The notes beneath the pieces are model-generated. The model did no database searches and was not told where the DNA came from. It worked only from the letters and a program-made list of their open reading frames with translations. The translations under genes and the position numbers were made by a program. A stretch of 16,466 bases of DNA from Lachnospiraceae bacterium. Its GTDB lineage: Bacteria > Bacillota > Clostridia > Lachnospirales > Lachnospiraceae. The DNA lies in contig JAFRCB010000316.1 of the NCBI GenBank assembly GCA_017404585.1, positions 1 to 16,466 of the forward strand, written 5' to 3'. Below, one piece after another: positions 474 through 16,466 of the stretch; the stretch's first letter is position 1; each line of letters begins with the position of its first letter.

Positions 474-581
474 TTGTTCTAAAACCCGGCTCTTTACAAA
501 GCGGCACACAGTAAAGAAGGCCGACAGACCTCTCCTCTTAAGATCGGTCTTCAGCCCTCCATAATCTTACGAACATCTTTA

Positions 582-1421
582 TTATTTCAGCATCCCCTTC
601 TCGTAAGCTACGACGAGCTGGAGCACACTGCCGCCGAGACAGCGAGCCTTATCGGAGACCTTGCTGCAGTTTTCGACTTCGTCGATTCGCGGATCGATGT
701 CAGCCATCTTGAGTCCTTCTGTGACCTCAAAATTGTCCGGAAGAATGCCGCGAATCACGCCCGGAATTGTTGCCGGGACCTTGACGCGGGTCTTTCCGGT
801 TCCGATCACAGCAATGATTTTTCCTTTCTCGACAATTTCACCGATTCCGCAGATGAGTTCAAGCGTTCCCGATGCAGGAGCATGAATGACGCGCTCCCTT
901 CCGTAACCTGCAATGTTGCCCGGAATCCCGGTATCTTCCTCGGCACTTCCCGTATATAAAATCCTTCCGAGATCGTGGCCCCGCATAGTTTCAATGACGC
1001 AGCGCACATCGACACCGGCCGTAAAGCCCGGTCCGAGCGCAATTGTCAGGGGCGCCATGTCTATTGTCGTTCCCAGGTTCTTTTTGGCAAGTATCGCGTC
1101 TATGAGAACATCCGGTTTCAGACGGGAAAGTGACTTGGCTTCCGGATCGATGAGAATCATCGGCCTGCCCGGCTGAGCCCTCCGCATTGCGTCATCAATA
1201 TTGCTTGTCAGCGTGCATGTCACACCCTCGACAGTTTTCGTGCCTTCGCCGTACCATCTGTCCCTCTCATAGATTGCGTCACAGAAAGCTACGTTGCGCC
1301 TGATTGCCGTAGGTCTGGCACACTCCAGAATGATCACGGGATAGCCGGCTTTGGAAAGCGCCAAAACTGTCCCCGTTGCAATATCTCCGCCGCCTCTTAC
1401 TACGATTGGTCTCATAATCAT
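582..1421 (-). CDS. yqeB: YqeB, selenium-dependent molybdenum hydroxylase maturation protein
   Basis: The protein has 279 residues. YqeB (EF2563 family) is a cytoplasmic factor thought to act on the molybdenum cofactor of selenium-dependent hydroxylases such as xanthine dehydrogenase or purine hydroxylase. The N-terminus carries the glycine-rich VVRGGGDIATG signature (residues 7-17), and a second conserved block, GPGFTAGVDVRCV, begins near residue 130. The length is normal for the family. The ATG overlaps the hydA stop by one base (TAATG), and GAAGGAAA just upstream serves as ribosome binding site, so the two are translationally coupled. A second ATG two codons in (MIMRP) is also possible. 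Its presence implies a selenium-dependent molybdenum hydroxylase elsewhere, since none is encoded here. Confidence 0.92.
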   Translation of the reverse strand: MIMRPIVVRGGGDIATGTVLALSKAGYPVIILECARPTAIRRNVAFCDAIYERDRWYGEGTKTVEGVTCTLTSNIDDAMRRAQPGRPMILIDPEAKSLSRLKPDVLIDAILAKKNLGTTIDMAPLTIALGPGFTAGVDVRCVIETMRGHDLGRILYTGSAEEDTGIPGNIAGYGRERVIHAPASGTLELICGIGEIVEKGKIIAVIGTGKTRVKVPATIPGVIRGILPDNFEVTEGLKMADIDPRIDEVENCSKVSDKARCLGGSVLQLVVAYEKGMLK

Positions 1422-2818
1422 TATTTTCCTTCCACATGTGTATAGTTTGGCACGCCTCTTTTTACAAATCTTCCGAGTCCTCTTCGGATAAGGCGTCCGT
1501 CATCCACACAGAGATTCCCGCGAAGGAAGACCTTCTCAACGCAGCCCCTGAGTTTCATTCCCTCATAGGGCGTGTTGTCACAGTTCGTGACCCAGTCAGC
1601 TGCGGTAATGATCTTCATCCTTGTCGGATCTATGACTGCGATATCGGCATCACTGCCGGGAAGCAGTGCCCCTTTTGTCGGATATACTCCGTACAGTTTT
1701 GCCTGATTCTCGGACAGCACGCGGCAGAGGCACTCCGGGGAAATTCTCCCTTTTCCGACACCCTCTGAGAACATCAGGTCGCCGCGGGTCTCAACTCCCG
1801 GGAGTCCTCCGGGAATTTTCGTGAAATCATCTATGCCTAGCTTCCTCTGCTCGAGCGTAAAATCGCAGTGGTCTGTGCAGACGGTATCTATTATACCACT
1901 TTTTATCGCATTCCAAAGCACTTCCTGATCATGTTTTGTTCGAAGCGGCGGCGCGCATATATATTTTGCACCCTCAAAATTCGGCAAATCATACAGGCTC
2001 TTATCAAGGAACAGGTACTGCGGGCATGTTTCCGAGTAGGCAGTTACCCCCTCCGCCCTCGCGCGGATGATCTCATTCAGGGCCTTTTCGTTCGTGGTGT
2101 GGACGACCATGACAGGCGCGTCGGCCTCTTTCGCGATGACCATGAGCCTGTGAACAGCCTCCGCTTCCATTGTGTCCGGACGTGAGCGTGGATGGGCGGA
2201 CGGTCCGAAGTTTCCGAGCTCCTTCTGCTCCTTGATAAGGGCATCGATGACAGGCGCATTCTCGCAGTGGCAGCCGGTGAAGGAGTGGACTTCCTTCAGC
2301 TTCTTCAGAACCTCGTAGATCTCGCCGTCATTAAGCATCATGGCCGGATAGGTCATGTAAATCTTGAAGGTCGTGATGCCCGCCTCCATCATGTCATCAA
2401 CTTCGTCCCGCACTTTTGGATTCCATTCGGAGATCGACATGTGATAGCTGTAGTCACAGGAATTCGGTCCGTTCTCATTGGCCATATCATGCCAGTTCTG
2501 AAGCCCCTCCTTCAGCGTCTCCCCATGGTACTGGGTTCCGAAGTCGATAACAAAAGTCGTTCCGCCTGCAATCGCCGCCGCTGTCCCGGTCTCAAAATTG
2601 TCGGATGTGACCGTGCCCGCGACATGAAGGTTAAAATGTGTGTGGGCGTCAATGAATCCGGGGAAGATATACTTGCCTGTGCAGTCGATCTCCTCTGCAT
2701 CCGGGTCGCTGATGTCCGTGTCCACCCTGACGATTTTCTCATCCTCGATCAGGAGATCTGCGATCCGTGTCCCTGAGCCTGAGACAATGATTCCGCCTTT
2801 TAAACATGTTTTTCCCAT
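1421..2818 (-). CDS. hydA: HydA/HyuA, hydantoinase/dihydropyrimidinase-family cyclic amidohydrolase
   Basis: The product has 465 residues from the chosen start. It is a metal-dependent hydrolase of the dihydropyrimidinase/D-hydantoinase family, which opens cyclic ureides to N-carbamoyl amino acids. All binuclear-metal ligands are visible: HTH at residues 59-61, the lysine expected to be carbamylated at K152 (FKIYMTY), H184, H240 and D316 (CTDHCD). ATG 2818 is chosen because AGAGGA sits at good spacing before it and the protein then begins like its relatives (MGKTCLKGGI). An in-frame ATG at 2890 would add 24 residues including a hairpin-encoded stretch and is unlikely. E. coli HyuA (about 460 residues) lies in the equivalent cluster. 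In the urate scheme it would open a reduced purine-derived ring (inference). Confidence 0.92.
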   Translation of the reverse strand: MGKTCLKGGIIVSGSGTRIADLLIEDEKIVRVDTDISDPDAEEIDCTGKYIFPGFIDAHTHFNLHVAGTVTSDNFETGTAAAIAGGTTFVIDFGTQYHGETLKEGLQNWHDMANENGPNSCDYSYHMSISEWNPKVRDEVDDMMEAGITTFKIYMTYPAMMLNDGEIYEVLKKLKEVHSFTGCHCENAPVIDALIKEQKELGNFGPSAHPRSRPDTMEAEAVHRLMVIAKEADAPVMVVHTTNEKALNEIIRARAEGVTAYSETCPQYLFLDKSLYDLPNFEGAKYICAPPLRTKHDQEVLWNAIKSGIIDTVCTDHCDFTLEQRKLGIDDFTKIPGGLPGVETRGDLMFSEGVGKGRISPECLCRVLSENQAKLYGVYPTKGALLPGSDADIAVIDPTRMKIITAADWVTNCDNTPYEGMKLRGCVEKVFLRGNLCVDDGRLIRRGLGRFVKRGVPNYTHVEGK

Positions 2819-2886
2819 TGCTGTTCCTCTTTTCTGCCTGCATTCAGACAGCAGGTGGATCCGCATCCACCTGCCGCCGTTTTCAT
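2800..2886 (-). CDS. Possible 28-residue leader ORF overlapping the hydA start
   Basis: An ATG at 2886 follows AAAGGTG with a six-base spacer. It opens a 28-codon frame that ends at TAA (2800-2802), overlapping the first 19 bases of hydA in a different frame. The predicted peptide is Cys/Gly-rich near its start (GGCGSTCC) and ends in EKHV. It spans a perfect 10-bp hairpin. It resembles no family I know. It could be a coupling leader peptide or a chance frame; the good ribosome binding site is the only positive evidence. Confidence 0.25.
   Translation of the reverse strand: MKTAAGGCGSTCCLNAGRKEEQQWEKHV
2851..2874 (-). promoter_or_regulatory. Perfect 10-bp hairpin between ygfK and hydA
   Basis: The arm GCAGGTGGAT at 2851-2860 is exactly complementary to 2865-2874, with a four-base loop. 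On the transcribed strand it lies between the ygfK stop and the hydA ribosome binding site, with its 3' arm 32 bases before the hydA ATG. No U-tract follows, so it is unlikely to be an intrinsic terminator. It more likely affects mRNA processing or stability, or controls hydA translation. Confidence 0.5.
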
Positions 2887-2967
2887 TCATATCACCTTTA
2901 CTCAGTCACCTGCGAGGAGGAAATTCCACCCGGCGTGGCTGTTGTCATATCCTGTCAGGAAACCTGA

Positions 2968-5964
2968 TCACTTTCTCAGCAGCATATACCAATGTCCGTA
3001 CATGACCGCATTCATAAGCTCCACGATTCCACCCGGAACGCTGCCCGGATTGTCTGCTGTGATGACGCTCTCTGTTCCCAGGAAGCGGACTTTATACTTC
3101 TTCTTTGTGATGTCGAGCACAACAAATCCGTCGTTGGTGGAATCGGCCATGTCGGCTTCATTTGCAAAGAGTGTAAATTTCTCCTTATACGGCTTGCTCG
3201 CGTACGGACAGAATGTCGCGCAGTTTCCGCACTCGTTGCACATATAATCGACGTGAACGATCTGCGGGATATCCCATCCTGGGACCTTGACTTCGATGTT
3301 AGCTCTGTTGGGGCATACGTCGAAGCAGTTCTCACAGATTACGTTGCAGTGCATGCAGCGCGCGTTGTCATTCATCTTGTCACAGGCCTCAGCCAGAATT
3401 CCCTTCTTCGCGTAAAGTGCTTCTGCGCAAATGTCAGCTTCTGCCTCGCGCCTCTCTCCCTCAGCTTTGCCGAGAATCGCGTCTGCTGCCTTTCGAGCAT
3501 TGGCCTCCGCCTTGACGATGATCGAAGGACCGTAGAGACCGTCACCGACGATGTATACGCCGGGTACCGAGGACTGAAGATTATCATCGACGAGCGGGCG
3601 GCCCTTGGCGTCGGTGTTGATGGCATTTGCATCATACCAGTTCTTATCGCATCTCTCGCCAACCGCAATGATAACTGTATCTGCCGGAATCTCCACTCTC
3701 TCGTCCGTCTCGGTAACGGAAGCGCGGCCGCTCTCATCCATGCTGCCTAGCTGCATGACCGCGCAGGTCAGCATTCCGTCTTTATAAGAGATCGGATTCG
3801 TGAGTTCTCTGAACTCCACACCGTCCTCTACCGCTTCAAGGAGTTCCTCCTCATCTGCGGGCATATAGCGCTTCGTACGTCTGTAAACAAGCGATACCTT
3901 TTCGACGCCGCTGTTCTTAAGTGCGGCTCTGGCTGTATCCATAGCCGTATTTCCGCCGCCGACAACGACAACGTTCTTTCCGATATCGACATTTCCGTCT
4001 GTCGCGTTGAATTCAGCGAGGAACGCAAGCGCATTCTTCGGCGTGATTCCGTCGATCTTCATGCGGCCTTCACCCGGAGCGCCGATCGCAACAATAATTG
4101 TCTCAAATCCGAGATCCTTGACCTCCTGCACAGTGACTGCGCGGCCCGTTTCGAACTTGACGCCGAGATTTCTCAGAAGGTCGATATCTTTCTCGATCTC
4201 CGCCTCAGCTATTCTGAAATTCGGGATCACATAGCGCGGCACGCCGCCGAGCTTCTCGTTCTTCTCGAATATGGTAACATCCGCGCCTTCCCTTGCAAGG
4301 AAATATGCTGTCGCCATACCTGCCGGACCGCCGCCGATCACAGCGGCCTTGATTCCGCACGGTTCCTTAGCCTTCAGCTCAGAAAGCGCCTTGTCGATTC
4401 CCGCGCGGGCGATCGTCAGCTTGGTATTGCGGATATTCACCTGGGTCTCATAGAAGTTTCTTGTACATGCATTCTGGCACGGGTGCGCGCAGAGGTTTCC
4501 TGTCATGAACGGCAGCGCGTTCGTGTCGAGCACGACCTTCATCGCGGCATCGAAATCGCCCTTCTCCGCGTATGCCATGTAGGAAGATACGTCCTGATGG
4601 ATCGGGCAGTGAGCGGTACACGGTGCAAAGAAGCAGTTGAGCAGCGGGACCTTCTCATCCGTCTTTCTGTTCGGAAGCGGCTTTGCCGGCTTCACATGAT
4701 GAACGTCAGTCAATGCCGACTCGGCCAGCGCATTCAGCTTCTCAACATCGATTCCTGCAAATGGCCGCACGACCCCCGAAAGCTTCTCCGCCATCTGCGT
4801 AAATCTCTGATAGCCGCCGGTCTTCAAAAGTGTTGTAGCTACAGTTACCGGCCAGATGCCTGTCTCGACGATCTTGTCGATATTGAAGTAATCCGCGCCG
4901 CCGGAGTAGGAAATGCGCAGCTTGCCCTCGAGGTCTCTGGACAGCTTTGCTGCCAAGTTGATAGAAAGAGCGTACAGGGAGCGGCCTGACATGTACATTT
5001 CATTGCTCGGCAGCTCGCCGCGGGTGACGTCGACCGGGAATGTGTTCGTGATCTTGACGCCGAAGGCAAGTCCCTTTTCATCGCACAGAGCCATAAGTCT
5101 CTTCAGCATCGGGATCGCATCGACATACTGCAGGTCGTCGTCGAAGTGGAACCTGCCGAATACCAGGTAGTCATATCCCATGGCGTCCATGGTGCTTCTT
5201 GCAAATTCATACCCGAGCAGGGTCGGATTGCATTTGATAAATGTGTTGAGGCCTTTCTCGTTGATGAGGTAGGTAGCGATGGCCTCGATCTCATGCGGCG
5301 GACATCCGTGAAGAGTGGAGATTGTCGCGTCGTTCACGATGTCAGAGCGGATCGCGTCGAGATCAGCCTCCGTGAAGTTCTTGAAATCACCGAGATTGTC
5401 GCGCAGGACGGAGATTGCGTGCTTGAATTCCTCCGTATCCTTTGCCTCCATCATTTTGTTGATGAAGGTGTCGATCTTGGGAGTCTTAATGCCGGCCAGG
5501 TCATAACCGACGGATATATTGAACTGGAAGCCGTCCTGGCTGCCGAGACCATACTCCTTGGCAATAAAGTTCAGCATGACCCAGGCGTTGATGTACTCGT
5601 GCTGAGCTTCCGGCACCGTGAGTTCTGTGGACCATTCGCAGTTGTAGCCCTCATCATCGGCCTTGATGCAGGGCTTATTCACACAGGCGGCAAGTTCACG
5701 GCCATCCATCTTCTGGACGGTCTTCAGTTCGAAGAATCGTGCTCCGGCATAATAGGATGCAACGATGGTCTGCGACAGCTGGGAGTTCGGGCCGGCTGCC
5801 GGACCGATGACGGTCTCAAGCGGACGTCCGAAGATTTCCTGCGTGTCAGCCGGGTTCGCTGTGAAAGGACGGCGCACACCGAACACACTGCCATGTGCAT
5901 CATGCTCACTTCTTACCCAGTAAAGAAGCTGTTCAAATGACATACATTTCATAATATCACTCAT
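2968..5964 (-). CDS. ygfK: YgfK, FAD/FMN/iron-sulfur oxidoreductase (labelled 'putative selenate reductase subunit')
   Basis: This 998-residue protein is close to the usual length of about 1030. Domains in order: residues 1-430 are a dihydroorotate/dihydropyrimidine-dehydrogenase-like barrel (IGPAAGPN and FELKTVQ near 53-85, HGCPP with C221, IKCNPTLLG with K244, SGGADYF near 354). Residues 444-500 form a GltD-type iron-sulfur region (C444, C449, C453, C492, C496, C500). Residues 540-830 are FAD and NAD(P)H domains with GGGPAG (544-549) and GGGNTA (669-674). Near the C-terminus are two 4Fe-4S motifs (C870/C873, C877, C880, C884; C909, C912, C915, C919). These are the parts of dihydropyrimidine dehydrogenase in a different order. 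That favours cytoplasmic NAD(P)H-driven reduction of a purine-type ring over selenate reduction (inference). ATG 5964 follows AGAGGTGA. It lies downstream of ssnA in the operon. Confidence 0.93.
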   Translation of the reverse strand: MSDIMKCMSFEQLLYWVRSEHDAHGSVFGVRRPFTANPADTQEIFGRPLETVIGPAAGPNSQLSQTIVASYYAGARFFELKTVQKMDGRELAACVNKPCIKADDEGYNCEWSTELTVPEAQHEYINAWVMLNFIAKEYGLGSQDGFQFNISVGYDLAGIKTPKIDTFINKMMEAKDTEEFKHAISVLRDNLGDFKNFTEADLDAIRSDIVNDATISTLHGCPPHEIEAIATYLINEKGLNTFIKCNPTLLGYEFARSTMDAMGYDYLVFGRFHFDDDLQYVDAIPMLKRLMALCDEKGLAFGVKITNTFPVDVTRGELPSNEMYMSGRSLYALSINLAAKLSRDLEGKLRISYSGGADYFNIDKIVETGIWPVTVATTLLKTGGYQRFTQMAEKLSGVVRPFAGIDVEKLNALAESALTDVHHVKPAKPLPNRKTDEKVPLLNCFFAPCTAHCPIHQDVSSYMAYAEKGDFDAAMKVVLDTNALPFMTGNLCAHPCQNACTRNFYETQVNIRNTKLTIARAGIDKALSELKAKEPCGIKAAVIGGGPAGMATAYFLAREGADVTIFEKNEKLGGVPRYVIPNFRIAEAEIEKDIDLLRNLGVKFETGRAVTVQEVKDLGFETIIVAIGAPGEGRMKIDGITPKNALAFLAEFNATDGNVDIGKNVVVVGGGNTAMDTARAALKNSGVEKVSLVYRRTKRYMPADEEELLEAVEDGVEFRELTNPISYKDGMLTCAVMQLGSMDESGRASVTETDERVEIPADTVIIAVGERCDKNWYDANAINTDAKGRPLVDDNLQSSVPGVYIVGDGLYGPSIIVKAEANARKAADAILGKAEGERREAEADICAEALYAKKGILAEACDKMNDNARCMHCNVICENCFDVCPNRANIEVKVPGWDIPQIVHVDYMCNECGNCATFCPYASKPYKEKFTLFANEADMADSTNDGFVVLDITKKKYKVRFLGTESVITADNPGSVPGGIVELMNAVMYGHWYMLLRK

Positions 5965-6041
5965 AGTTTGTCACCTCTTCTTTTGTTTATCTCTACCTTA
6001 TTTTTTTAGTCTCTGACTATTATTCTCTATCCTGTTTCCTC

Positions 6042-6057
6042 TGACTTTTTCAAGTCA
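6042..6057 (-). promoter_or_regulatory. Hairpin with GAAA tetraloop between ssnA and ygfK
   Basis: On the transcribed strand, TGACTT-GAAA-AAGTCA forms a perfect 6-bp stem closed by a GNRA-type loop, in the 125-base spacer between ssnA and ygfK. A second small dyad (TAGTC-AGA-GACTA) lies at 6008-6020. Neither is followed by a U-tract. They may be mRNA stability or processing elements. Confidence 0.35.
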
Positions 6058-6089
6058 TCCCTGCAGCCTGTTTTAATATTTTTAAATTA

Positions 6090-7418
6090 TCAGTTAATAC
6101 TGAAATGAAGCTTATCGGCCTCAGCGCGGCACTCAGCGTAGATCTTCTCCTCGTCACAGGTCTTAAGTTCGAAGTTCTGCATGAGGATCTTGCCGTTGCA
6201 GATCGTCGTCTCGCAGTCATGTCCCATCATACCGAAGAGGATATGGCCATTAAGATTATCAGCCCCGAGACGTGTCGGCGGAGTATACTTCATGACGATG
6301 ACGTCAGCCGCAGCACCCTCTTTCAGCACGCCGAGCTCGCTCTTGAAGTAACGGTTGGCCATCTTCGGATTGTTATAGAACAGCATTTGCGGAATCTCAC
6401 CCCACGCTGCGTTGGGATCGCAGAGGCTGTGCTTGTGGAGAACATTTGCAACCTTAAAGGACTCGATCATGTCGTGCGTATATCCGTCGGTTCCGAGACC
6501 CGTCAGTATGCCGTGATGCACCTGCTCCATGGTCGGCGGGCATCCGCATGCGTTGCCCATGTTCGATTCGGGATTGTGGACGATCATTGTATCGGTGTCT
6601 TTTATGAGCTGCATCTCGTGCTCATTGACATAGATGCAGTGGCCGAGCAGAGTCTTCGGACCGAGGATGTCATGATCATAGAGACGGTCGATGATCCGCT
6701 TGCCATATTTCTTCAGACAGTCGTGAAGGTCCTCGATGCCCTCAGCGACGTGAATGTGATAGCCGATGCCGTCCGGCTTCACGGAGGCAGCGTAATCAAA
6801 TGTCTGATCGGAAATCGTGAACTGCGCATGCATTCCCATCATGCCGGCGATCATGTCTGAATCATCCGCCAGCGCGTATTTTGCCCAGGCCGCGTTCTCG
6901 TCCACAGACTCTTTCGCCTTGTCCATTCCGTCTCTGTCGGAGATTTCATAGCAGAGGCAGGTGCGGATGCCGAGGTCTTTTGCCGCCTCACCGATCTTGA
7001 AAAGGGAGTCACGGATGTGACCGAAACTTGCGTGGTGGTCGAATACGGTGGTGACGCCGCATTTGATGGACTGAATATATGTGTCGTAAGCGCTGTATTT
7101 TGTCTGCTCCAGTGTCAGATGGCGGTCGATGGTCCACCACTGACCGTCAAGTATATCGAGGAAGCCTTTCGGATTATAGCCCTTGATGGAGAAACCTCTC
7201 GCCATGGCGCTGTAGATATGCTCATGCATGTTGATGAATGCCGGCATGATGACACCGCCGTGGGCATCAACGAATTCAGCCTCCGGATACGCGGCTTTCA
7301 TGTCCGCAAGTGTTCCGATCGCTTTAATTTTTGTCCCTTCTATGACGACGGCGCCGTCACGAATTTCAGGACACTCATTGTCTCTTGTAAATACGATTCC
7401 ATTTCCTACCAGATACAT
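6090..7418 (-). CDS. ssnA: SsnA, amidohydrolase/aminohydrolase of the purine-catabolism cluster
   Basis: The product has 442 residues from ATG 7418, matching E. coli SsnA. It belongs to the cytosine-deaminase/chlorohydrolase branch of the amidohydrolase superfamily, hydrolases of ring C-N bonds. Metal and catalytic residues visible are H65 and H67 (NMHEH), H221 and H223 (YHIHVAEG), H260 (LLGH) and D311 (LGTDGYTHD). SsnA-specific stretches include VHNPESNMGNACG (280-292). The start is chosen because AAGGACG precedes it; the longer in-frame reading from 7460 adds 14 residues without support. It is the first gene of the operon that continues into ygfK, hydA, yqeB and yqeC. In the anaerobic urate scheme it would act on the YgfK product; that order is inferred from published work on the E. 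coli-type cluster. Confidence 0.93.
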   Translation of the reverse strand: MYLVGNGIVFTRDNECPEIRDGAVVIEGTKIKAIGTLADMKAAYPEAEFVDAHGGVIMPAFINMHEHIYSAMARGFSIKGYNPKGFLDILDGQWWTIDRHLTLEQTKYSAYDTYIQSIKCGVTTVFDHHASFGHIRDSLFKIGEAAKDLGIRTCLCYEISDRDGMDKAKESVDENAAWAKYALADDSDMIAGMMGMHAQFTISDQTFDYAASVKPDGIGYHIHVAEGIEDLHDCLKKYGKRIIDRLYDHDILGPKTLLGHCIYVNEHEMQLIKDTDTMIVHNPESNMGNACGCPPTMEQVHHGILTGLGTDGYTHDMIESFKVANVLHKHSLCDPNAAWGEIPQMLFYNNPKMANRYFKSELGVLKEGAAADVIVMKYTPPTRLGADNLNGHILFGMMGHDCETTICNGKILMQNFELKTCDEEKIYAECRAEADKLHFSIN

Positions 7419-7545
7419 AATCACGTCCTTTCTCCGGGCTCCAGTCTGCCCGGCCGGCATTGGCCGCTCGCTTGTTCACCTGTCTGATTTCGTCGCAAAT
7501 TACAGTAGTTTTTTACAAAAATACCGATGACTTATGATTAAATTT

Positions 7546-7570
7546 CATCAATTATACTATATCACATCAA
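7546..7570 (-). promoter_or_regulatory. Candidate ssnA operon promoter -10 with flanking direct repeats
   Basis: A perfect TATAAT is read on the minus strand at 7551-7556. TTGATG occurs on both sides of it at a 19-base interval. A consensus -35 is missing. This is the best promoter candidate for ssnA-ygfK-hydA-yqeB-yqeC, but it rests on sequence similarity only. Confidence 0.35.
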
Positions 7571-7642
7571 ATCTTTTATGTCATCATAGAAACTTGTTTA
7601 CATATTTGATTAGAGCTGCATCCGCCTTAAAACCGATGATAA

Positions 7643-7695
7643 ACCAAAAAATAAAAGCAGCCATCTACCAATTAAATCAGGTAAATAGCTGCCTA
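7643..7695 (-). terminator. Rho-independent terminator after the serC-DUF1015 unit
   Basis: Arms 7680-7692 and 7657-7669 pair over 13 bp on the minus-strand transcript, with two G-U pairs and a 10-base loop. A U-rich tract (TTTTATTTTTT) follows. On the plus strand the G-U pairs become C-A mismatches and there is no T-tract, so it works for minus-strand transcription only. It lies about 55 bases beyond the DUF1015 stop and separates that unit from the ssnA operon. Confidence 0.85.
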
Positions 7696-7747
7696 TTGAA
7701 ATTAAAACAGATTAGATTAATAAGTTGTTAACTGAAATTCTAAACAA

Positions 7748-9028
7748 TCAATCAAGATAGTGCACAAACAACCCGCTCCTGAGCTTCGGCTCGAACCACG
7801 TTGACTTCGGCGGCATGATTGCGCCTGCATCCGCGATATCCATAAGATCGTCGAGCGTCGTCGGATACATGGCAAATGCCACCGCACACCCGCCGTCCAC
7901 CAGCTTCACAAGCTCCTTTAGTCCTCGGATCCCGCCGATGAAAGAAATCCGGCTGTCCGTGCGCGGATCGCCGATCGCAAGCACCGGTGTCAGAAGATTC
8001 TTCTGGAGGATGGATACATCCAGGCGCGAGACCGGATCATTCTCGTCGAATGTCCCGGCTTTGGCGGTCAGCTTGTACCACCTGCCTGAGATATACATGG
8101 ATACATCATGCTTCTTAGCCGGGCGATACTGCTCGAGAAATTCAGCATCTTTGGCCTTGTCCGCAGGCATTTCTGCCATAGGGGCAATATCAAATGAAAC
8201 ATTGACTTTAGAAAAGAACTCTTCCTCAGTGAGACCATTCAAATCATGCACTACGCGGTTGTAGTCATATATGTGAAGAACATCACTCGGGAACAGAACA
8301 GAGAGGAAGAAATTGAATTCCTCCGTGCCGTCATAGTCCGGATGCTCCGCTCTTCTCATGAGGCCTACGCGGACCGCAGAAGCTGAGCGGTGATGGCCGT
8401 CAGCGATATAGAAAGCAGGAACAGTCTCAAAGTACTTCTCAAGCTCACTAATGGTATCGATGTCATCGATTTTCCAGACAGTGTGGGTAATGCCGTCCAC
8501 AGCCACAAAGTCATAAATCGGGTCGTGGGAAGCCATCCAGTCAGCTGAAAACTGACCGATAAACCCATTGTCACGGAAAGTCAGGAAAATAGGTCCCGTA
8601 TTGGCATTGCATGTATCAACGTGCCTTACACGGTCCTCCTCCTTGTCGGCTCTCGTCAGCTCATGTTTCTTGATGATATTATTTTGGTAATCATCAATCG
8701 AGGCACACCCGACAATACCGGCCTGAGCGCGCCCGTTCATGATCTGTCTGTAAATGAAATACGCAGGTTTGTCATCCCGAATGTTCACGCCGTCATCGAG
8801 CATCTTCTGAAGATTCTCCGCGGCTTTTGCATAGACAGCAGCATCGTAAATATCTATAGACGGCTCAAGATCCACCTCCGCCTTATCCACATGCAGGAAT
8901 GAAAAAGGATCGTCTTTCACCATCTCCCTGGCTTCAGCGCTGTTCATAACGTCGTACGGAAGTGCGGCGACCTTATCAGCGACCTGCTCATTGGGCCGTA
9001 CTGCTGTAAACGGTCTGAATACTGCCAT
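7748..9028 (-). CDS. DUF1015 family protein, probable partner in phosphoserine/serine metabolism
   Basis: The product is 426 residues. It belongs to the DUF1015 family, soluble proteins of unproven function often encoded next to serC and serA. The start MAVFRPFTAVRP and the YIADGHHRSASA block (D210, G211, H212, H213, R214) are family hallmarks. KHELTRADKEEDR (121-133) is another conserved-looking charged stretch. The DGHHR motif resembles the active-site motif of ParB/sulfiredoxin-fold enzymes such as the free serine kinase SerK, which hints at phosphate chemistry (inference). ATG 9028 is preceded by AAGGAGG at ideal spacing, 22 bases after the serC stop, so the two genes form one unit. In-frame sequence upstream to 9073 runs into serC and is not expected to be translated. 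Confidence 0.85.
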   Translation of the reverse strand: MAVFRPFTAVRPNEQVADKVAALPYDVMNSAEAREMVKDDPFSFLHVDKAEVDLEPSIDIYDAAVYAKAAENLQKMLDDGVNIRDDKPAYFIYRQIMNGRAQAGIVGCASIDDYQNNIIKKHELTRADKEEDRVRHVDTCNANTGPIFLTFRDNGFIGQFSADWMASHDPIYDFVAVDGITHTVWKIDDIDTISELEKYFETVPAFYIADGHHRSASAVRVGLMRRAEHPDYDGTEEFNFFLSVLFPSDVLHIYDYNRVVHDLNGLTEEEFFSKVNVSFDIAPMAEMPADKAKDAEFLEQYRPAKKHDVSMYISGRWYKLTAKAGTFDENDPVSRLDVSILQKNLLTPVLAIGDPRTDSRISFIGGIRGLKELVKLVDGGCAVAFAMYPTTLDDLMDIADAGAIMPPKSTWFEPKLRSGLFVHYLD

Positions 9029-9050
9029 GTCTGCCTCCTTATGACACACC

Positions 9051-10142
9051 TTACTTCTGATGCTCAGCCGCAAACTCCTTCATATACTCAACAAGCGCGA
9101 TTACGCCTTCCTTCGGCATCGCATTGTAGATGGATGCACGCATGCCGCCGGTAACTCTGTGTCCCTTGAGGTTTGAGAATCCATGAGCTGCCTGACCTTT
9201 GACGAATTCTGCATCGAGCGCATCGTCCCCCGTGCGGAAAGTGACGTTCATGATGGAACGGTCTTCCCTAGCAGCTGCCGCCTTGAAGAAATCCTGAGAG
9301 TCAAGATAGTCGTACAGGATCCCGGCCTTCTCCTCATTGCGCCTCTGCATCTCGGCAAGACCGCCCTGCTCCATCAGATAATCCGTGACAAGCTTCACGA
9401 AATAAATCGGGAAGCAGGGAGGTGTGTTCAACATGGACTCTTTGTCAGCCATGATCTTGTAATCCCAGATCTTCGGAGTGATCGGCATCGCGTTGCCGAT
9501 CAGATCCTCGCGGACGATAACGATCGCCATACCTGCCGGAGCCATGTTCTTCTGGACACCTGCGTAGATCATGCCGAACCTGGAGACATCCACCGGCTCG
9601 GAGAGAATGCTTGAAGACATATCAGCTACAAGCGGAACATCACCCGTGTCCGGAATATACTGGAACTTTGTGCCGAAAATCGTGTTGTTCCAGCACACAT
9701 GTACATAATCAGCGTCCGGGCTCAACTTCAGCTCATCCTGACGCGGAATGCGTGTAAAGTTTACGTCTTTAGTTGTCGCAATTTCTCTTGCGTCGAGATA
9801 TTTTTTAGCTTCCTTCAGCGCGCCTCCGGAGAAATTTCCGGAAACAATGTAATCAGCGACTTTATTCTTATTTCCCAGATTCATCGGAAGAGATGCAAAT
9901 ACACCGCTCGCGCCGCCCTGCAAAAACAGGACCTTGTAGTTGTCCGGGATGTTCATGATCTTTCTCATATTGGCTTCAGCAGCCTTGATGATATCATCGA
10001 ACACCTTGGATCTGTGACTCATCTCAAGAACGGACATGCCGGAGCCTTCGCAGTTCAGGAGTTCTGCCTGTGCTTTGAGCAGGACCTCTTCCGGAAGGAT
10101 GGACGGACCTGCGGAGAAATTGTAAATTCTACCTTCAATCAT
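9051..10142 (-). CDS. serC: SerC, phosphoserine aminotransferase
   Basis: The 363-residue product is a class V PLP aminotransferase. It converts 3-phosphohydroxypyruvate and glutamate to O-phosphoserine and 2-oxoglutarate in serine synthesis. It begins with the classic IYNFSAGP and has QGGAS (75-79) and the PLP lysine K198 in AGVQKNMAPAG, the position known for SerC. Length and motifs are normal. ATG 10142 follows AGGAGG. It has its own promoter and is followed by the DUF1015 gene. No serA is present here, although serC-serA-DUF1015 is a common arrangement. It may be ordinary serine synthesis, or it may feed phosphoserine to the neighbouring threonine-synthase-like enzyme (speculative). Confidence 0.95.
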   Translation of the reverse strand: MIEGRIYNFSAGPSILPEEVLLKAQAELLNCEGSGMSVLEMSHRSKVFDDIIKAAEANMRKIMNIPDNYKVLFLQGGASGVFASLPMNLGNKNKVADYIVSGNFSGGALKEAKKYLDAREIATTKDVNFTRIPRQDELKLSPDADYVHVCWNNTIFGTKFQYIPDTGDVPLVADMSSSILSEPVDVSRFGMIYAGVQKNMAPAGMAIVIVREDLIGNAMPITPKIWDYKIMADKESMLNTPPCFPIYFVKLVTDYLMEQGGLAEMQRRNEEKAGILYDYLDSQDFFKAAAAREDRSIMNVTFRTGDDALDAEFVKGQAAHGFSNLKGHRVTGGMRASIYNAMPKEGVIALVEYMKEFAAEHQK

Positions 10143-10160
10143 AATATGTGCCTCCTCTAA

Positions 10161-10181
10161 TTGACCAGCTTATGCTGTCAA
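10161..10181 (-). promoter_or_regulatory. Bulged inverted repeat at the serC transcript start; contains a shared 13-base motif
   Basis: On the minus strand TTGACAGC pairs with GCTGGTCAA around an ATAA loop with one bulged G. It begins about where the serC promoter would start transcription. It contains TGACAGCATAAGC (minus strand of 10168-10180), which recurs exactly upstream of the 489-residue PLP gene at 13417-13429. It could be an operator or a 5'-end mRNA hairpin. Confidence 0.45.
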
Positions 10182-10187
10182 GCACAT

Positions 10188-10217
10188 ATTATAGGTCACA
10201 CCGCTACGCTTTGTCAC
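10188..10217 (-). promoter_or_regulatory. serC promoter
   Basis: On the minus strand GTGACA (plus 10212-10217) and TATAAT (plus 10188-10193) are separated by 18 bases. This matches the housekeeping consensus at 5/6 and 6/6. The predicted transcript starts near 10181, leaving a leader of about 40 bases before the serC ATG. Confidence 0.65.
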
Positions 10218-10237
10218 GTTAAATCTGAAAAATTTTC

Positions 10238-10275
10238 GATATTGTAATATCGCAATACTATATTTTTACAAAAAT
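10238..10275. promoter_or_regulatory. Two AT-rich dyads upstream of the serC promoter
   Basis: CGATATT-GT-AATATCG (10238-10253) and ATTTTT-AC-AAAAAT (10262-10275) are both perfect inverted repeats. The first is centred about 65 bases before the predicted serC start, a position typical of activators. It also overlaps a TATTG/CAATA dyad. It lies 62-77 bases after the threonine-synthase-like stop and has AAAATTTTT following on the minus strand, so a weak terminator is an alternative. Confidence 0.3.
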
Positions 10276-10314
10276 TGGTTAAAACAGCTGCCCCAAAGTA
10301 TAGCATCATGCAAA

Positions 10315-11550
10315 TCAAGCCAGCTCCGGAAGCTCCTTAAGCAGCAGATCCATCTCCGGCGGTATACAGATCGGCTCCCCGGCTGCCTTGATCGCGTTAT
10401 TGACGTCTTTTAGGCCGTTGCCGGTGACAACGCTGACGACCGAAGCATCTTTCTCTATGAGTCCGAGCTCGATGGCTTTCTTGATGCCCGCTGTTCCCGT
10501 CGCTCCTGCAGGTTCTGCAAATACTCCCTGAGTCCGCCCGAGCAGCCTCATTGCCGCAAGGATCTCTTCGTCAGATACATTTACACAGACACCGTTCGAT
10601 TCGCGGATTGCCCTGATGGCCTTGATCGGATTTCTCGGTACACCGACCGCGATTGAATCAGCAATCGTATTCTCCGGCTGCGGAGACCACTCTTCTGTTC
10701 CCGCAGCTGCCGCCGTGTTGATCGGGCAGCACCCTGAAGCCTGGACACTGATAATGCGGGGCAGTCTGTCGATGAAACCGGCCGCATACATGTCCTTAAA
10801 GCCCTTCCAGAGACCTGCGATTGTGCATCCGTCGCCTACGGAAATAGCTACATAGTCTGTCATCTTGAATTTCAGCTGTTCAGCAATCTCAAGAGCGACA
10901 GTCTTCTTGCCTTCCATGAGATACGGGTTGATTGCCGCGTTCCTGTTATACCAGCCCCAGCGGTCAATAGCTTCCGCTGACAGACGGAATGTGTCCTCAT
11001 AGGTTCCTTTTACAGAGATAACGGTCGCTCCGAACATCATGAGCTGGGCTACCTTCCCCTTGGGTGCGCGCTCCGGCACAAAGATATATGTCTTCATGCC
11101 TGCCGCCGCGGCATTTCCCGCAAGAGAGCTGGCAGCGTTGCCTGTGGATGAACATGCGATGATATTCTTGCCGGCTTCCTCCGCCTTGACGACCGCCATC
11201 GCAGAAGCCCGGTCCTTCAGGGAAGCTGTCGGATTGATGCCGTCATCCTTAATATAGAGAGTCTTGATTCCGAGAGTATCCGCCAAGCGGTCAGCCTTAT
11301 AGAACGGTGACATGCCGACACGCAGCTTGGGAAGCTTCCCCCTGCCTTCTACCGGCAGGAACTCCATGTATCTCCACATGGTCCGGTCCTCACGGTCCAT
11401 AAGCCCATATGGTGTCAGTTTCGATTTTATATATTCATAGTCGTACTCGATATCCATGATGCCGCCGCAGCTCGGGCATACTGTGATATCGGGCGTCGCT
11501 TCGATCATCTTTCCACAAATCGTACACTTTGCGCCGATAACGTTCTTCAT
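10315..11550 (-). CDS. Threonine-synthase-like PLP enzyme with N-terminal zinc ribbon
   Basis: The product has 411 residues. C9/C12 and C25/C28 form a rubredoxin-like zinc ribbon. A fold-type-II PLP core follows with the Schiff-base lysine K112 (TASLKDRAS), SSTGNAA (134-140) and the phosphate loop GDGCTIAG (239-246). The family includes threonine synthase (O-phosphohomoserine to threonine) and the archaeal cysteate synthase, which uses O-phosphoserine and has a similar layout. Threonine synthase is the default call, but a serC neighbour and no thrA/thrB make a paralogue with another substrate possible. ATG 11550 is preceded by GCAGGTG at long spacing. Spacers of 172 and 245 bases on either side suggest its own transcription unit. 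Confidence 0.8.
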   Translation of the reverse strand: MKNVIGAKCTICGKMIEATPDITVCPSCGGIMDIEYDYEYIKSKLTPYGLMDREDRTMWRYMEFLPVEGRGKLPKLRVGMSPFYKADRLADTLGIKTLYIKDDGINPTASLKDRASAMAVVKAEEAGKNIIACSSTGNAASSLAGNAAAAGMKTYIFVPERAPKGKVAQLMMFGATVISVKGTYEDTFRLSAEAIDRWGWYNRNAAINPYLMEGKKTVALEIAEQLKFKMTDYVAISVGDGCTIAGLWKGFKDMYAAGFIDRLPRIISVQASGCCPINTAAAAGTEEWSPQPENTIADSIAVGVPRNPIKAIRAIRESNGVCVNVSDEEILAAMRLLGRTQGVFAEPAGATGTAGIKKAIELGLIEKDASVVSVVTGNGLKDVNNAIKAAGEPICIPPEMDLLLKELPELA

Positions 11551-11612
11551 AATATTTGCACCTGCTCTGTTTTTTATGTATTAAGACAGTTTTGTTTTCT
11601 GATATTTTCTAT

Positions 11613-11676
11613 CAAGAACGCCTCGACGTTCTTGCCGCGCCGCGCAAAGTGCGAAGCACCTTCATCATTGCGCGGC
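11613..11676. repeat. GC-rich nested palindrome (REP-like intergenic element)
   Basis: Three stems lie close together in an AT-rich spacer. CAAGAACG/CGTTCTTG (11613-11620, 11627-11634) has a 6-base loop. GCCGCGCAA/TTGCGCGGC (11639-11647, 11668-11676) is 9 bp. GTGC/GCAC (11649-11652, 11656-11659) sits inside the second. The contrast in GC with its surroundings and the stacked symmetry suggest a dispersed intergenic repeat. Copy number cannot be seen from one window. No U-tract follows on either strand. Confidence 0.45.
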
Positions 11677-11706
11677 TGCGATCCGCCGGAGGCATTTAAT
11701 TGAAAG

Positions 11707-11742
11707 GCAGCCAGGTCCATATTAATCCGGTCCTTTAGCTGC
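11707..11742 (-). terminator. Hairpin after the 489-residue PLP gene, possible weak terminator
   Basis: On the minus transcript GCAGCTA pairs with TGGCTGC. After a two-base bulge and one mismatch, further GG/CC and CC/GG pairs close around an AT-rich loop. Only CTTTC follows, so termination would be weak. Its sequence parallels the strong terminator at 7657-7692 (GCAGCCA ... TAGCTGC on the plus strand in both). Confidence 0.4.
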
Positions 11743-11795
11743 ATTCGAAATTCAAATTTTTAGCAAAAGCAACTGACAACACATATGAGTGAAAA

Positions 11796-13265
11796 TCAAA
11801 GCTTCTTCAGCAGCCCTGTCTCCTCATTGAACGCATTGATCAGCTCGTCGACCCTGTCAGCATCCTTCTTGACAGAATCCCAGGTATTCTCTGTATCATA
11901 CCACAGATCATTGAGCTCCTCGGAGGTCTTGCCCTGCTGCTCGACCCATGTGTAATACTTGAGATTGTGGACACGCTTCCTGTCTGTGTAGCGAAGCTCG
12001 ATCATATTGTCTGTCTTCTCACCGAGAATATGTACATGGTAGTCGAGCGCTGCCTTCTCGTGCGTATACTCGCCGTCCTCATCCTGAAGCTCCTTGATTC
12101 TGGACTGATACATATCCGCTGAATCTGTCATGACCGTGCCGATGACGTCATTCTCTGTCAGCTCATAGTACTTGGCCATCTTGATGGCGCAGAGCATATT
12201 TGCAATACCGGAAATACCGAAGTATCCGAGAAGATCGACGAGTGCCGGATCTACGCCCTGCTCTTTAAGATAGTCGCGGCCGACCGGCTCATTGAAGAGG
12301 CGGAGAAGCTTCTGGGAATCCTCATCATCGATGTCGACGACCAGATCTGTATTCTTTACATTGTGGATCCACGGTACATGCTTGTCGCCGATACCCTCGA
12401 TGCGGTGAGCGCCGAAACCGTTGTCAAGAAGAGTCGGGCACTGGAGAGCTTCACCGACACCGACTTTGGCTGTCGGATACAGGTCTTTGATGCGGTCGCC
12501 CGCAGCCATCGTTCCCGCTGAGCCGGATGTAAAGATGACGCCTGCCAGTCTCATGCCGTCGCTCTTCATCTCCTCAAATGCATCCGCAATCGCGTTGCCT
12601 GTTACATTATAATGCCACATATAGTTGCCCATCTGCTCGAACTGGTTGAAGATCATGCATTCCGGCTGCTGGGACAGCTCATGGGTCTTGTCAAAAATCT
12701 CCTTGACGTTGGACTCGGAACCCGGCGTCGCAATGATCTCGCTGGCGATGGTCTTAAGCCAGTCAAAGCGCTCGCGGCTCATGCCCTGCGGAAGGATAGC
12801 GACCGAGTAGCAGTCAAGAAGCTTGGAGTTGAATGCGCCGCCGCGGCAGTAATTGCCTGTGGACGGCCATACTGCCTTGTGATAATCAGAATCGAACTGA
12901 CCGGTGACAAGGCGCGGCGCAAGGCATCCGAAGGAGGCGCCGACTTTGTGGCAGCCGGTCGGGAACCATTTGCCTATCATGCAGATAATCTTTGCCTTCA
13001 CACCCGTGAGCTCTGACGGAAGAACAATATAGTTCGGGCCGTGGAAGAGACCACCGCTCTCCTTCTGCTCCTTCTTCCATGTAATTCGATAGAGGTTCAG
13101 CGGATTGACATCCCAGAGGCCGACCCCCTTCAGCTGTTCCTTGATTGCATCCGGAATCAGCTCCGGATTCTTCATCTGTGCAATCGTCGGAATGATAATG
13201 TTGTTCTCTCTGGCTCGCGCGATATTATGTTTGAGTCCCTGTTCGTTAATCTTAAGATTGATCAT
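11796..13265 (-). CDS. Fold-type-II PLP-dependent enzyme, unrecognised subfamily (489 aa)
   Basis: This is probably a lyase or beta-replacement enzyme. Evidence for the fold is the PLP lysine K107 in PTGCHKVGASFG, the substrate-loop motif STGNY (135-139), the glycine-rich FTSGSAGTMAAG (245-256) and GISGIAN (350-356). At 489 residues it is longer than cysteine synthase or diaminopropionate ammonia-lyase (300-400). The last 100 or so residues (from about 390) form a charged extension I cannot place. It is not a YgeX: the known E. coli YgeX motifs around its lysine and its length differ. ATG 13265 is chosen for the AGGAGGAG just before it; the open frame back to 13391 lacks support. Being divergent from the regulator and next to ygeY suggests a role in the same pathway, perhaps the terminal ammonia-releasing step (inference). 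Confidence 0.75.
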   Translation of the reverse strand: MINLKINEQGLKHNIARARENNIIIPTIAQMKNPELIPDAIKEQLKGVGLWDVNPLNLYRITWKKEQKESGGLFHGPNYIVLPSELTGVKAKIICMIGKWFPTGCHKVGASFGCLAPRLVTGQFDSDYHKAVWPSTGNYCRGGAFNSKLLDCYSVAILPQGMSRERFDWLKTIASEIIATPGSESNVKEIFDKTHELSQQPECMIFNQFEQMGNYMWHYNVTGNAIADAFEEMKSDGMRLAGVIFTSGSAGTMAAGDRIKDLYPTAKVGVGEALQCPTLLDNGFGAHRIEGIGDKHVPWIHNVKNTDLVVDIDDEDSQKLLRLFNEPVGRDYLKEQGVDPALVDLLGYFGISGIANMLCAIKMAKYYELTENDVIGTVMTDSADMYQSRIKELQDEDGEYTHEKAALDYHVHILGEKTDNMIELRYTDRKRVHNLKYYTWVEQQGKTSEELNDLWYDTENTWDSVKKDADRVDELINAFNEETGLLKKL

Positions 13266-13416
13266 TTTTCTCCTCCTGAACTCTGAATGTGCTGTTTCTC
13301 CTTGCCATGCAGCATAAAGCATCGCTCCTTGCGCCTGAGATGAGATTGGAGTCAGCAGACGCTGATATTTGCAAATGCAACTCACCCTCAAGCATTATAA
13401 CAAATCATCGAATCAC

Positions 13417-13429
13417 GCTTATGCTGTCA
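13417..13429 (-). promoter_or_regulatory. 13-base motif shared with the serC leader (candidate operator)
   Basis: TGACAGCATAAGC on the minus strand is identical to the copy at 10168-10180. Here it lies about 20-35 bases downstream of the predicted start of the PLP-gene transcript; at serC it lies at the predicted start. Both positions suit a repressor site. The serC hairpin partner is not conserved here, which favours DNA recognition over a shared RNA fold. Confidence 0.45.
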
Positions 13430-13456
13430 GACATTTGTCATGGCATTCTTATAAAA

Positions 13457-13485
13457 ATTCTATCATTTGTGCTATATTTTAGCAA
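13457..13485 (-). promoter_or_regulatory. Promoter candidate for the 489-residue PLP gene
   Basis: On the minus strand TTGCTA (plus 13480-13485) and TAGAAT (plus 13457-13462) are 17 bases apart, matching consensus at 4/6 and 5/6. The spacer contains a GCTA/TAGC dyad. Confidence 0.45.
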
Positions 13486-13663
13486 CAGCCATCCACAAAT
13501 TTTTAGAGTTAAAAAATTATTTTTAGTCTACAGCTTGTAATAATCCTCATGTATGATATGATTATTATAATAATAAGAAGCGAAAATTTTCTTCCTTTTC
13601 CGGCCGGAGTAGAAAATCATTGCCGGCAGGCGGAAAATTTGAGAGAAAAGAAAGGAGTGACCC

Positions 13664-14302
13664 TTGGAAGATCTGACATTCACCACTCTGAAACAGTTAG
13701 CCCGGGGTCTTGCCGAACAGTTCGGGAGCAATTGTGAAATCGTTATCCACGACCTATCTGAAGAACATATTGATAATTCCATCGTCCACATAGAGAACGG
13801 TCACGTTACCGGCAGAAAACTCGGCGGCAGTCCATCGAACGTCGTCATCGAAGCCATCCAGAAAAATCCGGATGATCTGGAAGACCAATATGCATACCTC
13901 ACAAGGACCGATAGCGGCAGGATCCTGAAATCCACGACAATTTTCATTAAGGGAGAAGATAAAAGACCCCGATACGTACTTGCCATCAACTACGATATAA
14001 CAAACCTGCTTGCCCTGGAGAGCACCATAAAAAGTCTCACGACTACCGGTGAGGATGCAGATGCCGACCAGCCCACCCCCATCCCAATGGATGTCAACCA
14101 GCTTCTCGACGAACTCATCGCTCAGAGCGTGGAGCTTGTCGGTGTTCCGGTAGCCTATATGACAAAAGAGGACAAGATCAAAGCCATCCAGTTCCTGAAC
14201 GATTCCGGTGCTTTCCTGATCACAAAATCGGGGGATAAAGTCTCAAAGTTCTTCGGCATCTCGAAGTACACGCTTTACTCCTACGTCAATATCAACAAGT
14301 AA
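13664..14302 (+). CDS. YheO/DauR-type transcriptional regulator (PAS-like sensor plus HTH)
   Basis: The product has 212 residues. An N-terminal YheO-like PAS domain (about 8-120) includes IVIHDL, DNSIVHIENGHVTGRKLGG (37-55) and YVLAINYDIT (104-113). The C-terminal helix-turn-helix (about 168-210) includes DKVSKFFGISKYTLYSYVN. The family includes DauR, a repressor of D-arginine catabolism, and other amino-acid-linked regulators; the ligand here is unknown. Translation starts at TTG, placed by GGAG six bases upstream; no ATG nearby fits. It is divergent from the PLP gene and precedes ygeY and ygeW, so it is the obvious candidate local regulator. E. coli's equivalent cluster instead carries the sigma-54-type YgeV. 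Confidence 0.87.
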   Translation: MEDLTFTTLKQLARGLAEQFGSNCEIVIHDLSEEHIDNSIVHIENGHVTGRKLGGSPSNVVIEAIQKNPDDLEDQYAYLTRTDSGRILKSTTIFIKGEDKRPRYVLAINYDITNLLALESTIKSLTTTGEDADADQPTPIPMDVNQLLDELIAQSVELVGVPVAYMTKEDKIKAIQFLNDSGAFLITKSGDKVSKFFGISKYTLYSYVNINK

Positions 14303-14349
14303 TTTGCCGGATTACAGCCGGTACAATATTTAGAAAACACAGAACCAGC

Positions 14350-14447
14350 GGTGAGAGTCTCCTTTGAATATCCCGCCAACCTAAGGCGGTTGGTTTCTCT
14401 CACCCGGATGTAACTCACCAACCTTAAGGTGGGAGTTTCTCTCACCC
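14350..14447 (+). repeat. Two 42-base-period tandem hairpin units in the ygeY leader
   Basis: GTTTCTCTCACCC occurs at 14393-14405 and 14435-14447, and CCAACCT(T)AAGG at 14376-14386 and 14418-14429; both pairs are 42 bases apart. Each unit has its own hairpin: CCGCC/GGCGG with loop AACCTAA in the first, CTCACC/GGTGGG with loop AACCTTAA in the second. The first can alternatively form CCAACC/GGTTGG. GGTGAGAG at 14350-14357 is complementary to CTCTCACC in both units, allowing competing folds. It could be a leader regulatory RNA for ygeY-ygeW or a remnant of IS200/IS605-type end hairpins. No known riboswitch consensus is recognised. Confidence 0.55.
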
Positions 14448-14486
14448 AAGCAGCAGCTAACACCATGAATAATAGTGGAGGTCAAA

Positions 14487-15818
14487 ATGGATTACAGCAA
14501 AATTTTAGAGGCAGCACAGAGCTATCAGGAAGATATGACCGCATTTCTCCGTGACATGATAAAGATTCCCAGCGAGAGCTGTGAGGAAGAGCTTGTCATA
14601 AAGAGAATTGCCGAGGAGATGGAAAAAGTCGGTTTTGATAATGTGCAGATCGATGCTCAGGGCAACTGTCTCGGTTGGATGGGACACGGACCAAGGATAA
14701 TCGCCTTTGACGGCCATATCGATACAGTTGGTGTAGGCTTAAGAAACAATTGGGAATTCGACCCGTATGAAGGATTCGAGAACGAGACTCTCATCGGCGG
14801 CCGCGGCGGTTCCGACCAGGAAGGCGGTATCGCGTCAGCTGTCTACGGCACAAAGATCATGAAAGAACTCGGTCTCCTGCCGGATGACGTCACGATTCTC
14901 GTCACCGCTACAGTTCAGGAGGAAGACTGTGACGGTCTCTGCTGGCAGTTCATTCATAAAGAAGACGGAGTAACTCCGGAATTTGTCGTCTCCACAGAGC
15001 CGACAGACGGCGGTATCTACAGAGGACACAGAGGACGTATGGAGATCCGCGTCGATATGCACGGCATCTCCTGCCACGGCAGTGCTCCGGACCGCGGGAG
15101 TAATGCCATCGAGAAGATGGCGGAGGTCATTTGCAACGTTAAAGCTCTCAATGAGAACGACGACGCCGACGAGACGGAGATCAAAGGTCTCATCAAGATG
15201 CTGAACCCGAAGTACAATCCGGAACATTATGAGGATGCCCGCTTCCTCGGCAGGGGCACATGCACAGTCTCCCAGATTTATTTCACATCTCCGAGCCGCT
15301 GCGCGGTGGCTGACAGCTGCTCTATTTCGATTGACCGTCGTATGACAGCCGGTGAGACATTCGAATCCTGCCTCGAGGAGATCCGCCAGCTTCCGGCATG
15401 CAGGAAATACAAGGACGACGTCACAGTTTCCATGTACATGTACGACAGACCATCCTACACAGACCTGGTCTACGAGACAGAGTGCTACTTCCCGACGTGG
15501 ATCAACAGCGAGTCCGCGCCGCACGTAAAGGCTATCACAGACGCTCACCACGCACTCTTCGGAACAGAACGTATCGGCACACCGGAGTCCATGGACAAGA
15601 GAAATCGCCCGCTGGTCGACAAATGGACCTTCTCCACGAACTGCGTATCCATCCAGGGCCGCTACGGCATCCCGTGCGTCGGCTTCGGCCCGGGTGCCGA
15701 GAGTCAGGCACACGCCCCGAACGAGATCACTTACAAGCAGGATCTTGTCACATGTGCGGCACTCCTCTGCGCGCTTCCGATGACATATGTAGAGCAGAAT
15801 CCAGAGGCAGTAAAGTAA
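14487..15818 (+). CDS. ygeY: YgeY, M20-family metallohydrolase of the selenium/purine cluster
   Basis: The product is 443 residues from ATG 14487, which has GGAGG five bases upstream; an in-frame GTG at 14475 overlaps that site and is rejected. It is an M20/ArgE-DapE-type hydrolase expected to cleave an amide in a late intermediate. Metal and catalytic residues visible are H77 and D79 (FDGHIDT), D110 ([11 protein letters not shown]), E145/E146 (TVQEEDCDG), E171 (STEPTDGG) and H409 (ESQAHAPNE). It is slightly longer than E. coli YgeY (about 400). In proposed anaerobic urate pathways this enzyme works near diaminopropionate formation; that role is carried over by homology. It lies between the regulator and ygeW, each spacer carrying hairpins. 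Confidence 0.93.
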
Positions 15819-15855
15819 TTTCTGTGTTTTCCGCTGCAGTGAGCAGAAAGCAGAT

Positions 15856-15912
15856 CCATTATAGTCAACATATAGCGAACATCTTCGGATGTTCTCCACT
15901 ATAGTCATCATA
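15856..15912 (+). repeat. 17-base direct repeat flanking a TTCG-loop hairpin between ygeY and ygeW
   Basis: CCATTATAGTCAACATA (15856-15872) and CCACTATAGTCATCATA (15896-15912) match at 15 of 17 positions, 40 bases apart. Between them GAACATC-TTCG-GATGTTC (15877-15894) is a perfect 7-bp stem with a UUCG loop. TATAG/CTATA can extend it after an internal loop. No U-tract follows. It could be a paired operator or an mRNA stability element upstream of ygeW. Confidence 0.5.
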
Positions 15913-15983
15913 CAATGTCACCATCTTAACGATGTGGCACCTCGAACTGATTTATACGATAAAAACAAATGAGGAGGCACCAG

Positions 15984-16466
15984 ATGAATTATTCAATCAA
16001 AGACTTTGACGGAATGATCGCAAGGCTCAAGGAACTCGACACAGAGAACATGTACATGAACGACTTTTTCCTCACATGGGAGAAAACTGATGATGAGATT
16101 GAAGCCGTGTGGACAGTAGCCGATGCGCTGCGCGATCTTCGCTGCCGCAACATCTCGACAAAAGTTTTCGATTCGGGTCTCGGCATCCTCATATTCCGCG
16201 ACAACTCCACCCGCACCCGCTTCTCCTTCGCCGCCGCCTGCAACCTGCTGGGGCTGGAGGTGCAGGACCTGGACGAGGGCAAGAGCCAGATCGCCCACGG
16301 TGAGACGGTGCGCGAGACGGCGAACATGGTGTCCTTCATGGCGGACGTCATCGGCATCCGCGACGACATGTACATCGGCAAGGGCAACAGGTACATGCAC
16401 GACGTGGTAGACGCCGTGACCGAGGGCCACGCGCAGGGCGTATTGGAGCAGAAGCCCACGCTGGTC
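15984..16466 (+). CDS. ygeW: YgeW, knotted carbamoyltransferase (partial, C-terminus off the right edge)
   Basis: The first 161 codons are visible of a family of about 400 residues. YgeW belongs to the aspartate/ornithine carbamoyltransferase superfamily (knotted subgroup). Its likely catabolic role is phosphorolysis of a ureido intermediate to carbamoyl phosphate, usable for ATP by carbamate kinase. The carbamoyl-phosphate loop STRTRF is at 75-80, followed by EGKSQIAHGETVRET. ATG 15984 has GAGGAGG upstream. The reading frame is open to the window end. From codon 73 (base 16200) onward nearly every third position is G or C and leucine is almost always CTG, unlike the first 72 codons and the rest of the window. 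This is either recombination or a chimeric assembly. Confidence 0.9.
   Translation, partial: MNYSIKDFDGMIARLKELDTENMYMNDFFLTWEKTDDEIEAVWTVADALRDLRCRNISTKVFDSGLGILIFRDNSTRTRFSFAAACNLLGLEVQDLDEGKSQIAHGETVRETANMVSFMADVIGIRDDMYIGKGNRYMHDVVDAVTEGHAQGVLEQKPTLV

Follow-up and report, generated by a model that had tools for sequence, protein, structure and literature searches.

The stretch of DNA analyzed here (the window, 16,466 bases) is a complete contig, C191, of the draft assembly G000, which comprises 2.16 Mb in 361 contigs and is 64.9% complete and 1.4% contaminated. Positions 1–16187 carry genes of an anaerobic uric-acid/purine degradation and selenium-dependent molybdenum hydroxylase cluster, and a profile search placed homologues of yqeC, yqeB, hydantoinase, ygfK, ssnA and ygeY in this region, above the curated cut-offs. 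Among the purine-degradation genes, positions 7748–10142 (minus strand) encode a DUF1015 protein and a class-V aminotransferase, the latter of which we take to be serC-like, and a contig of the same-genus genome G017 is collinear here. Positions 11796–13391 (minus strand) encode a PLP-dependent enzyme, distantly cysteine synthase-like, which falls below all NCBIfam curated cut-offs and scores 33.4 bits against 35 for PALP. Divergent from this gene and upstream of ygeY lies a regulator of the YheO-like PAS and HTH type (13664–14302, plus strand). The last gene of the contig is ygeW, which divides into three parts:

15984–16187, plus strand: native 5′ part of ygeW, codons 1–68, assigned by identity to the same-genus loci L004 and L005 and by its tree clade with both
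16188–16193, plus strand: join, codons 69–70, assigned by site-by-site comparison and by a leucine at codon 69 where a serine stands elsewhere
16194–16466, plus strand: foreign tail, codons 71–161 of the ygeW of a GC-rich, RUG13861-like species, reaching the contig end, assigned by identity to the locus L062 and by tree clade

Three loci recur in the comparisons below. L004 and L005 are the ygeW loci of the same-genus genomes G017 (contig C203) and G025 (contig C9), respectively, while the donor-like locus L062 lies on contig CADBCY010000003.1 (94,920 bases), labelled “uncultured Clostridiales bacterium isolate RUG13861”. The L062 contig holds a complete ygeW frame of 399 amino acids, preceded by DNA that matches the ygeY of the window at 71%. 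Among named relatives, the one nearest to the gene sits in the Lachnospiraceae MAG RGIG5770 from sheep ileum (JAFWIM010000052.1, locus L055), which has the same identities to the window as L004 in the segment comparison.

Against TIGR03316, the best of 14 families and that of the knotted carbamoyltransferase YgeW, the protein of the window scores 292.2 bits over 161 residues (positions 3–154 of 391), below the curated cut-off of 500 bits, the protein being cut by the contig end. The carbamoyl-phosphate binding domain (PF02729) scores 72.4 bits and passes its cut-off of 29.9. Both halves of the gene are YgeW, but unlike an intact YgeW the gene breaks off where the contig does, and the final 91 codons present are of non-native origin. 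A reductive uric-acid degradation cluster that includes YgeW is described in PMC12507026, and like that cluster the window has ygeY, ssnA, ygfK and hydantoinase beside ygeW. Its neighbors fit this cluster, and the native gene is thus an ordinary ygeW in a cluster of a known kind, resembling that for anaerobic breakdown of uric acid.

The composition of ygeW changes where the FRDNSTRTR motif begins (16194). GC content is 0.47 in 15984–16193 and 0.66 in 16194–16466, and the fraction of codons ending in G or C (GC3) is 42/70 (0.60) upstream versus 88/91 (0.97) downstream (Fisher p = 3.9e-9). The earlier note had put 16201–16440 at about 66% GC by hand count, and the computed value is 66.2%. The tail as a whole has 65.6% GC, and the highest value for a 273-base window within 1–16193, sampled every 10 bases, is 60.8%. 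As a baseline we used 100 other distinct ygeW segments, with the window’s own copy excluded. A downstream rise is normal for this gene, with a mean of 0.080 in GC (sd 0.029, maximum 0.151) and of 0.050 in GC3 (sd 0.077, maximum 0.226), but the steps in the window, 0.189 in GC and 0.367 in GC3, exceed those of all 100 segments. The composition step is therefore real, as the note had held in calling the switch abrupt, although part of it, on average 8 GC points, is what ygeW normally displays. The reading frame is unbroken across the switch, again as described before, and stays open as far as the contig end. Since the window is the entire contig, the switch sits at a contig end, and C191 stops 273 bases past position 16194.

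When the two parts were compared separately, as had been suggested, their best matches came from different genomes: G017 and G025 for the 5′ part and RUG13861 for the 3′ part. The segment 15984–16193 is 89.0% identical to L004, 86.2% to L005 and 58.1% to L062, and at most 69% to other loci, in a comparison of 132 rows that include redundant loci. For 16194–16466 the figures are 99.3% to L062 (271 of 273 bases), 78.0% to L004 and 79.1% to L005. In a site-by-site comparison, agreement with L062 sets in at 16194 and is broken only at 16280 and 16301, and the protein encoded by the tail is identical to that of L062. Trees of 41 sequences (the window, with 22 chosen and 18 random segments out of the 100 others) join the 5′ part to L004 and L005 in one clade (support 100/99), and the 3′ part to L062 in another (support 100/96). 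Both swapped placements were rejected, with a p-AU of 7e-10 for the 5′ part beside L062 and of 0.0025 for the 3′ part beside L004 and L005. Judged by sequence, the ygeW of the window is shown to be a mosaic of two organisms.

A native continuation of the gene is found on another contig of G000. C166 (3,063 bases) starts inside ygeW at the counterpart of window position 16278, 84 bases after the switch. With G017:C203 it shares 90.0% identity across 920 bases, and with G025:C9 88.6% across 1,037 bases. C191 itself is collinear with G017:C203 from base 582 on, at 84.7–90.5% per piece. Where C166 and the tail overlap within ygeW they are 79% identical, and in this overlap C166 is 92.6% identical to L005 and 91.5% to L004, while the tail is 98.9% identical to L062. 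Grouping C166 with the tail was rejected (p-AU 0.0007). Grouping it with L004 and L005 gave a p-AU of 0.626 and was 7.86 log units better than the free tree of 189 columns, in which the three do not form one clade. The gene after ygeW on C166 is shared with G017 (81.9% over 502 bases) and has no match in the stretch of G025 compared, which leaves a single relative to confirm the gene order beyond ygeW.

Searching a protein database with the L004 protein as query yielded, among the best 120 of 7997 proteins, P0001, an unbroken YgeW of 402 amino acids on a contig of 1,974 bases. Its sequence agrees with the N-terminus of the window gene at 68 of 70 residues and with C166 at 301 of 304, but with the tail at only 79 of 91. 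Taken with the evidence from C166, this makes it very likely that a single ordinary gene was split between the 5′ part on C191 and C166, leaving 84 bases (16194–16277) between them unassembled.

The tail was also sought elsewhere. The earlier note held that the same composition step in close relatives, together with long reads spanning the join, would rule out an artefact; among 41 other same-genus genomes, 23 had a match of any kind, one of them only 24 bases long (96%), and the best full-length match was 86%. Neither these 41 genomes nor the 31 aligned full database proteins (of the best 120) contained the mosaic. Across 398 sampled genomes of the phylum, own genome included, the best full-length match outside the own genome was 79%, with partial matches of up to 83% over 190 bases and higher values for some matches under 30 bases. 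Within G000, searches for the flanks of the donor-like gene gave at most 74% identity beyond the tail (L062:3451–6450) and at most 76% upstream of the gene. Other candidate sources were rejected in turn: viral contigs held four stretches that match a search pattern, none encoding a relative; a phage collection gave one match, 70.6% over 211 tail bases, in an unannotated Enterococcus phage record; a plasmid search with 15600–16466 gave seven records, all at 60–80% identity; and 5128 E. coli records were likewise all at 60–80%, the best among the matches listed being 70.5%. At the other contig end, bases 1–461 of C191 match G017 at 69% only. Bases 1–1699 match G025 in one piece at 77.6%, and thus no second splice is seen there.

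A closer look at the join reveals a flaw that the earlier note had not described. At 16188, 16189 and 16193 the window agrees with neither the two same-genus relatives nor the donor-like gene, and codon 69 specifies leucine, where all 100 other distinct segments have serine. Serine also stands there in 31 of 31 database proteins that could be aligned from the best 120 of 7997, after those without a match to the motif pattern or with fewer than 70 residues before the motif were dropped. The idea that the motif region offers enough shared DNA for two orthologues to be joined was not confirmed, since at the join only 11 consecutive bases are common to the donor and the two same-genus relatives nearest to the window gene. 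Longer words are shared with the tail further on, 45 bases with C166 (16344–16388) and 57 bases with L005 (16332–16388), and the paths of both species therefore do touch within ygeW, but these words do not explain why the switch lies at 16194. Leu69 and the three unmatched bases are more readily explained by an error at the join than by selection of a recombinant.

We consider it very probable that the last 273 bases of C191 were joined to the wrong species by the assembler. The sequence up to about 16187 would belong to the genome of a Lachnospiraceae-like gut bacterium and that from 16194 to the orthologous ygeW stretch of a GC-rich species nearly identical to RUG13861, and the assembler would have joined the two species inside the conserved enzyme domain. 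Two observations characteristic of a chimera are both made here: the parts of C191 have different closest organisms, and the native continuation lies elsewhere in the assembly, on C166. The earlier note had left the choice between a recombinant gene and a chimeric assembly. The mosaic itself stands, and the second branch is much better supported because the native rest of ygeW was assembled within G000 itself, on C166; the first branch is not supported. We infer a software join within a conserved region, as opposed to recombination in a cell.

PMC8171044 describes chimeric nodes in multi-species de Bruijn graphs and names horizontal gene transfer as another possible source of them. Like the chimeras described there, C191 combines two species, switches between them in a conserved orthologous stretch and has its native continuation on a separate contig. 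It differs from them in that the word expected to carry the join is not seen at 16194 in the known relatives (11 bases), and in that the 84 native bases remained unassembled. Because the tail comes from another gut bacterium and was most likely spliced on by the assembler, the half-and-half ygeW is most likely an artefact, neither biology nor a real feature, and the composition switch holds no new biology. It is a clean case of how a draft genome can seem to hold a recombinant gene when a short, foreign stretch is attached in frame to a conserved enzyme where a contig ends. The last 279 bases of C191 (16188–16466) should be left out of any study on how ygeW evolved or how genes move among purine-degrading gut bacteria.

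Genuine recent homologous recombination, in which part of the strain’s ygeW was replaced by RUG13861-like DNA and C166 derives from a strain with the native gene, would account for a switch in frame at homologous codons and for a tail nearly identical to a real genome (99.3%), as a recent transfer would be. It is nonetheless very unlikely, given the native continuation in the same assembly, the best full-length tail match of 86% in the 41 other same-genus genomes, the 11 bases common at the join in known relatives, the leucine at codon 69 against serine in 100 of 100 others, and a switch no more than 273 bases from the contig end. The gene resembles mosaics from inter-species recombination in its in-frame orthologue switch and in having one part near-identical to the donor. 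Unlike such mosaics, C191 has no visible return to native sequence before its end, a close tail is absent from the other same-genus genomes searched, and G000 also contains the native allele. That a minority strain acquired the carbamoyl-phosphate domain of ygeW from a GC-rich, RUG13861-like gut bacterium very recently, with both alleles present in the sampled community, is accordingly improbable to the same high degree.

A chimeric molecule that arose in the laboratory, before assembly, while the library was prepared or amplified, fits the three bases within 16188–16193 that match neither side and the lack of a long shared word at the join in known relatives. An in-frame join at exactly homologous codons would be rare by random ligation, although template switching could produce one, and a contig requires the agreement of several molecules. 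This origin is extremely improbable. A composition gradient natural to ygeW, with no mosaic at all, draws on the average of 8 GC points by which the downstream part is richer in the 100 other segments, but was rejected as the full cause and is of negligible probability, the window step being larger than in every one of them and the two halves having different closest relatives, with alternative placements rejected.

Returning to the assembler join as the preferred reading, a second candidate for the native continuation in G000 was contig C267. Its ygeW is only 74–75% identical to G017 and G025, and C267 was for this reason rejected in favor of C166. The locus (L135, G000:C267, 1–4061) holds a second complete ygeW of 398 amino acids with 76% DNA identity to the window gene, preceded by a ygeY frame and followed by a frame that, named by eye, resembles carbamate kinase. 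C267 may carry a duplicate of the cluster, or may be a contaminant that was binned with the genome.
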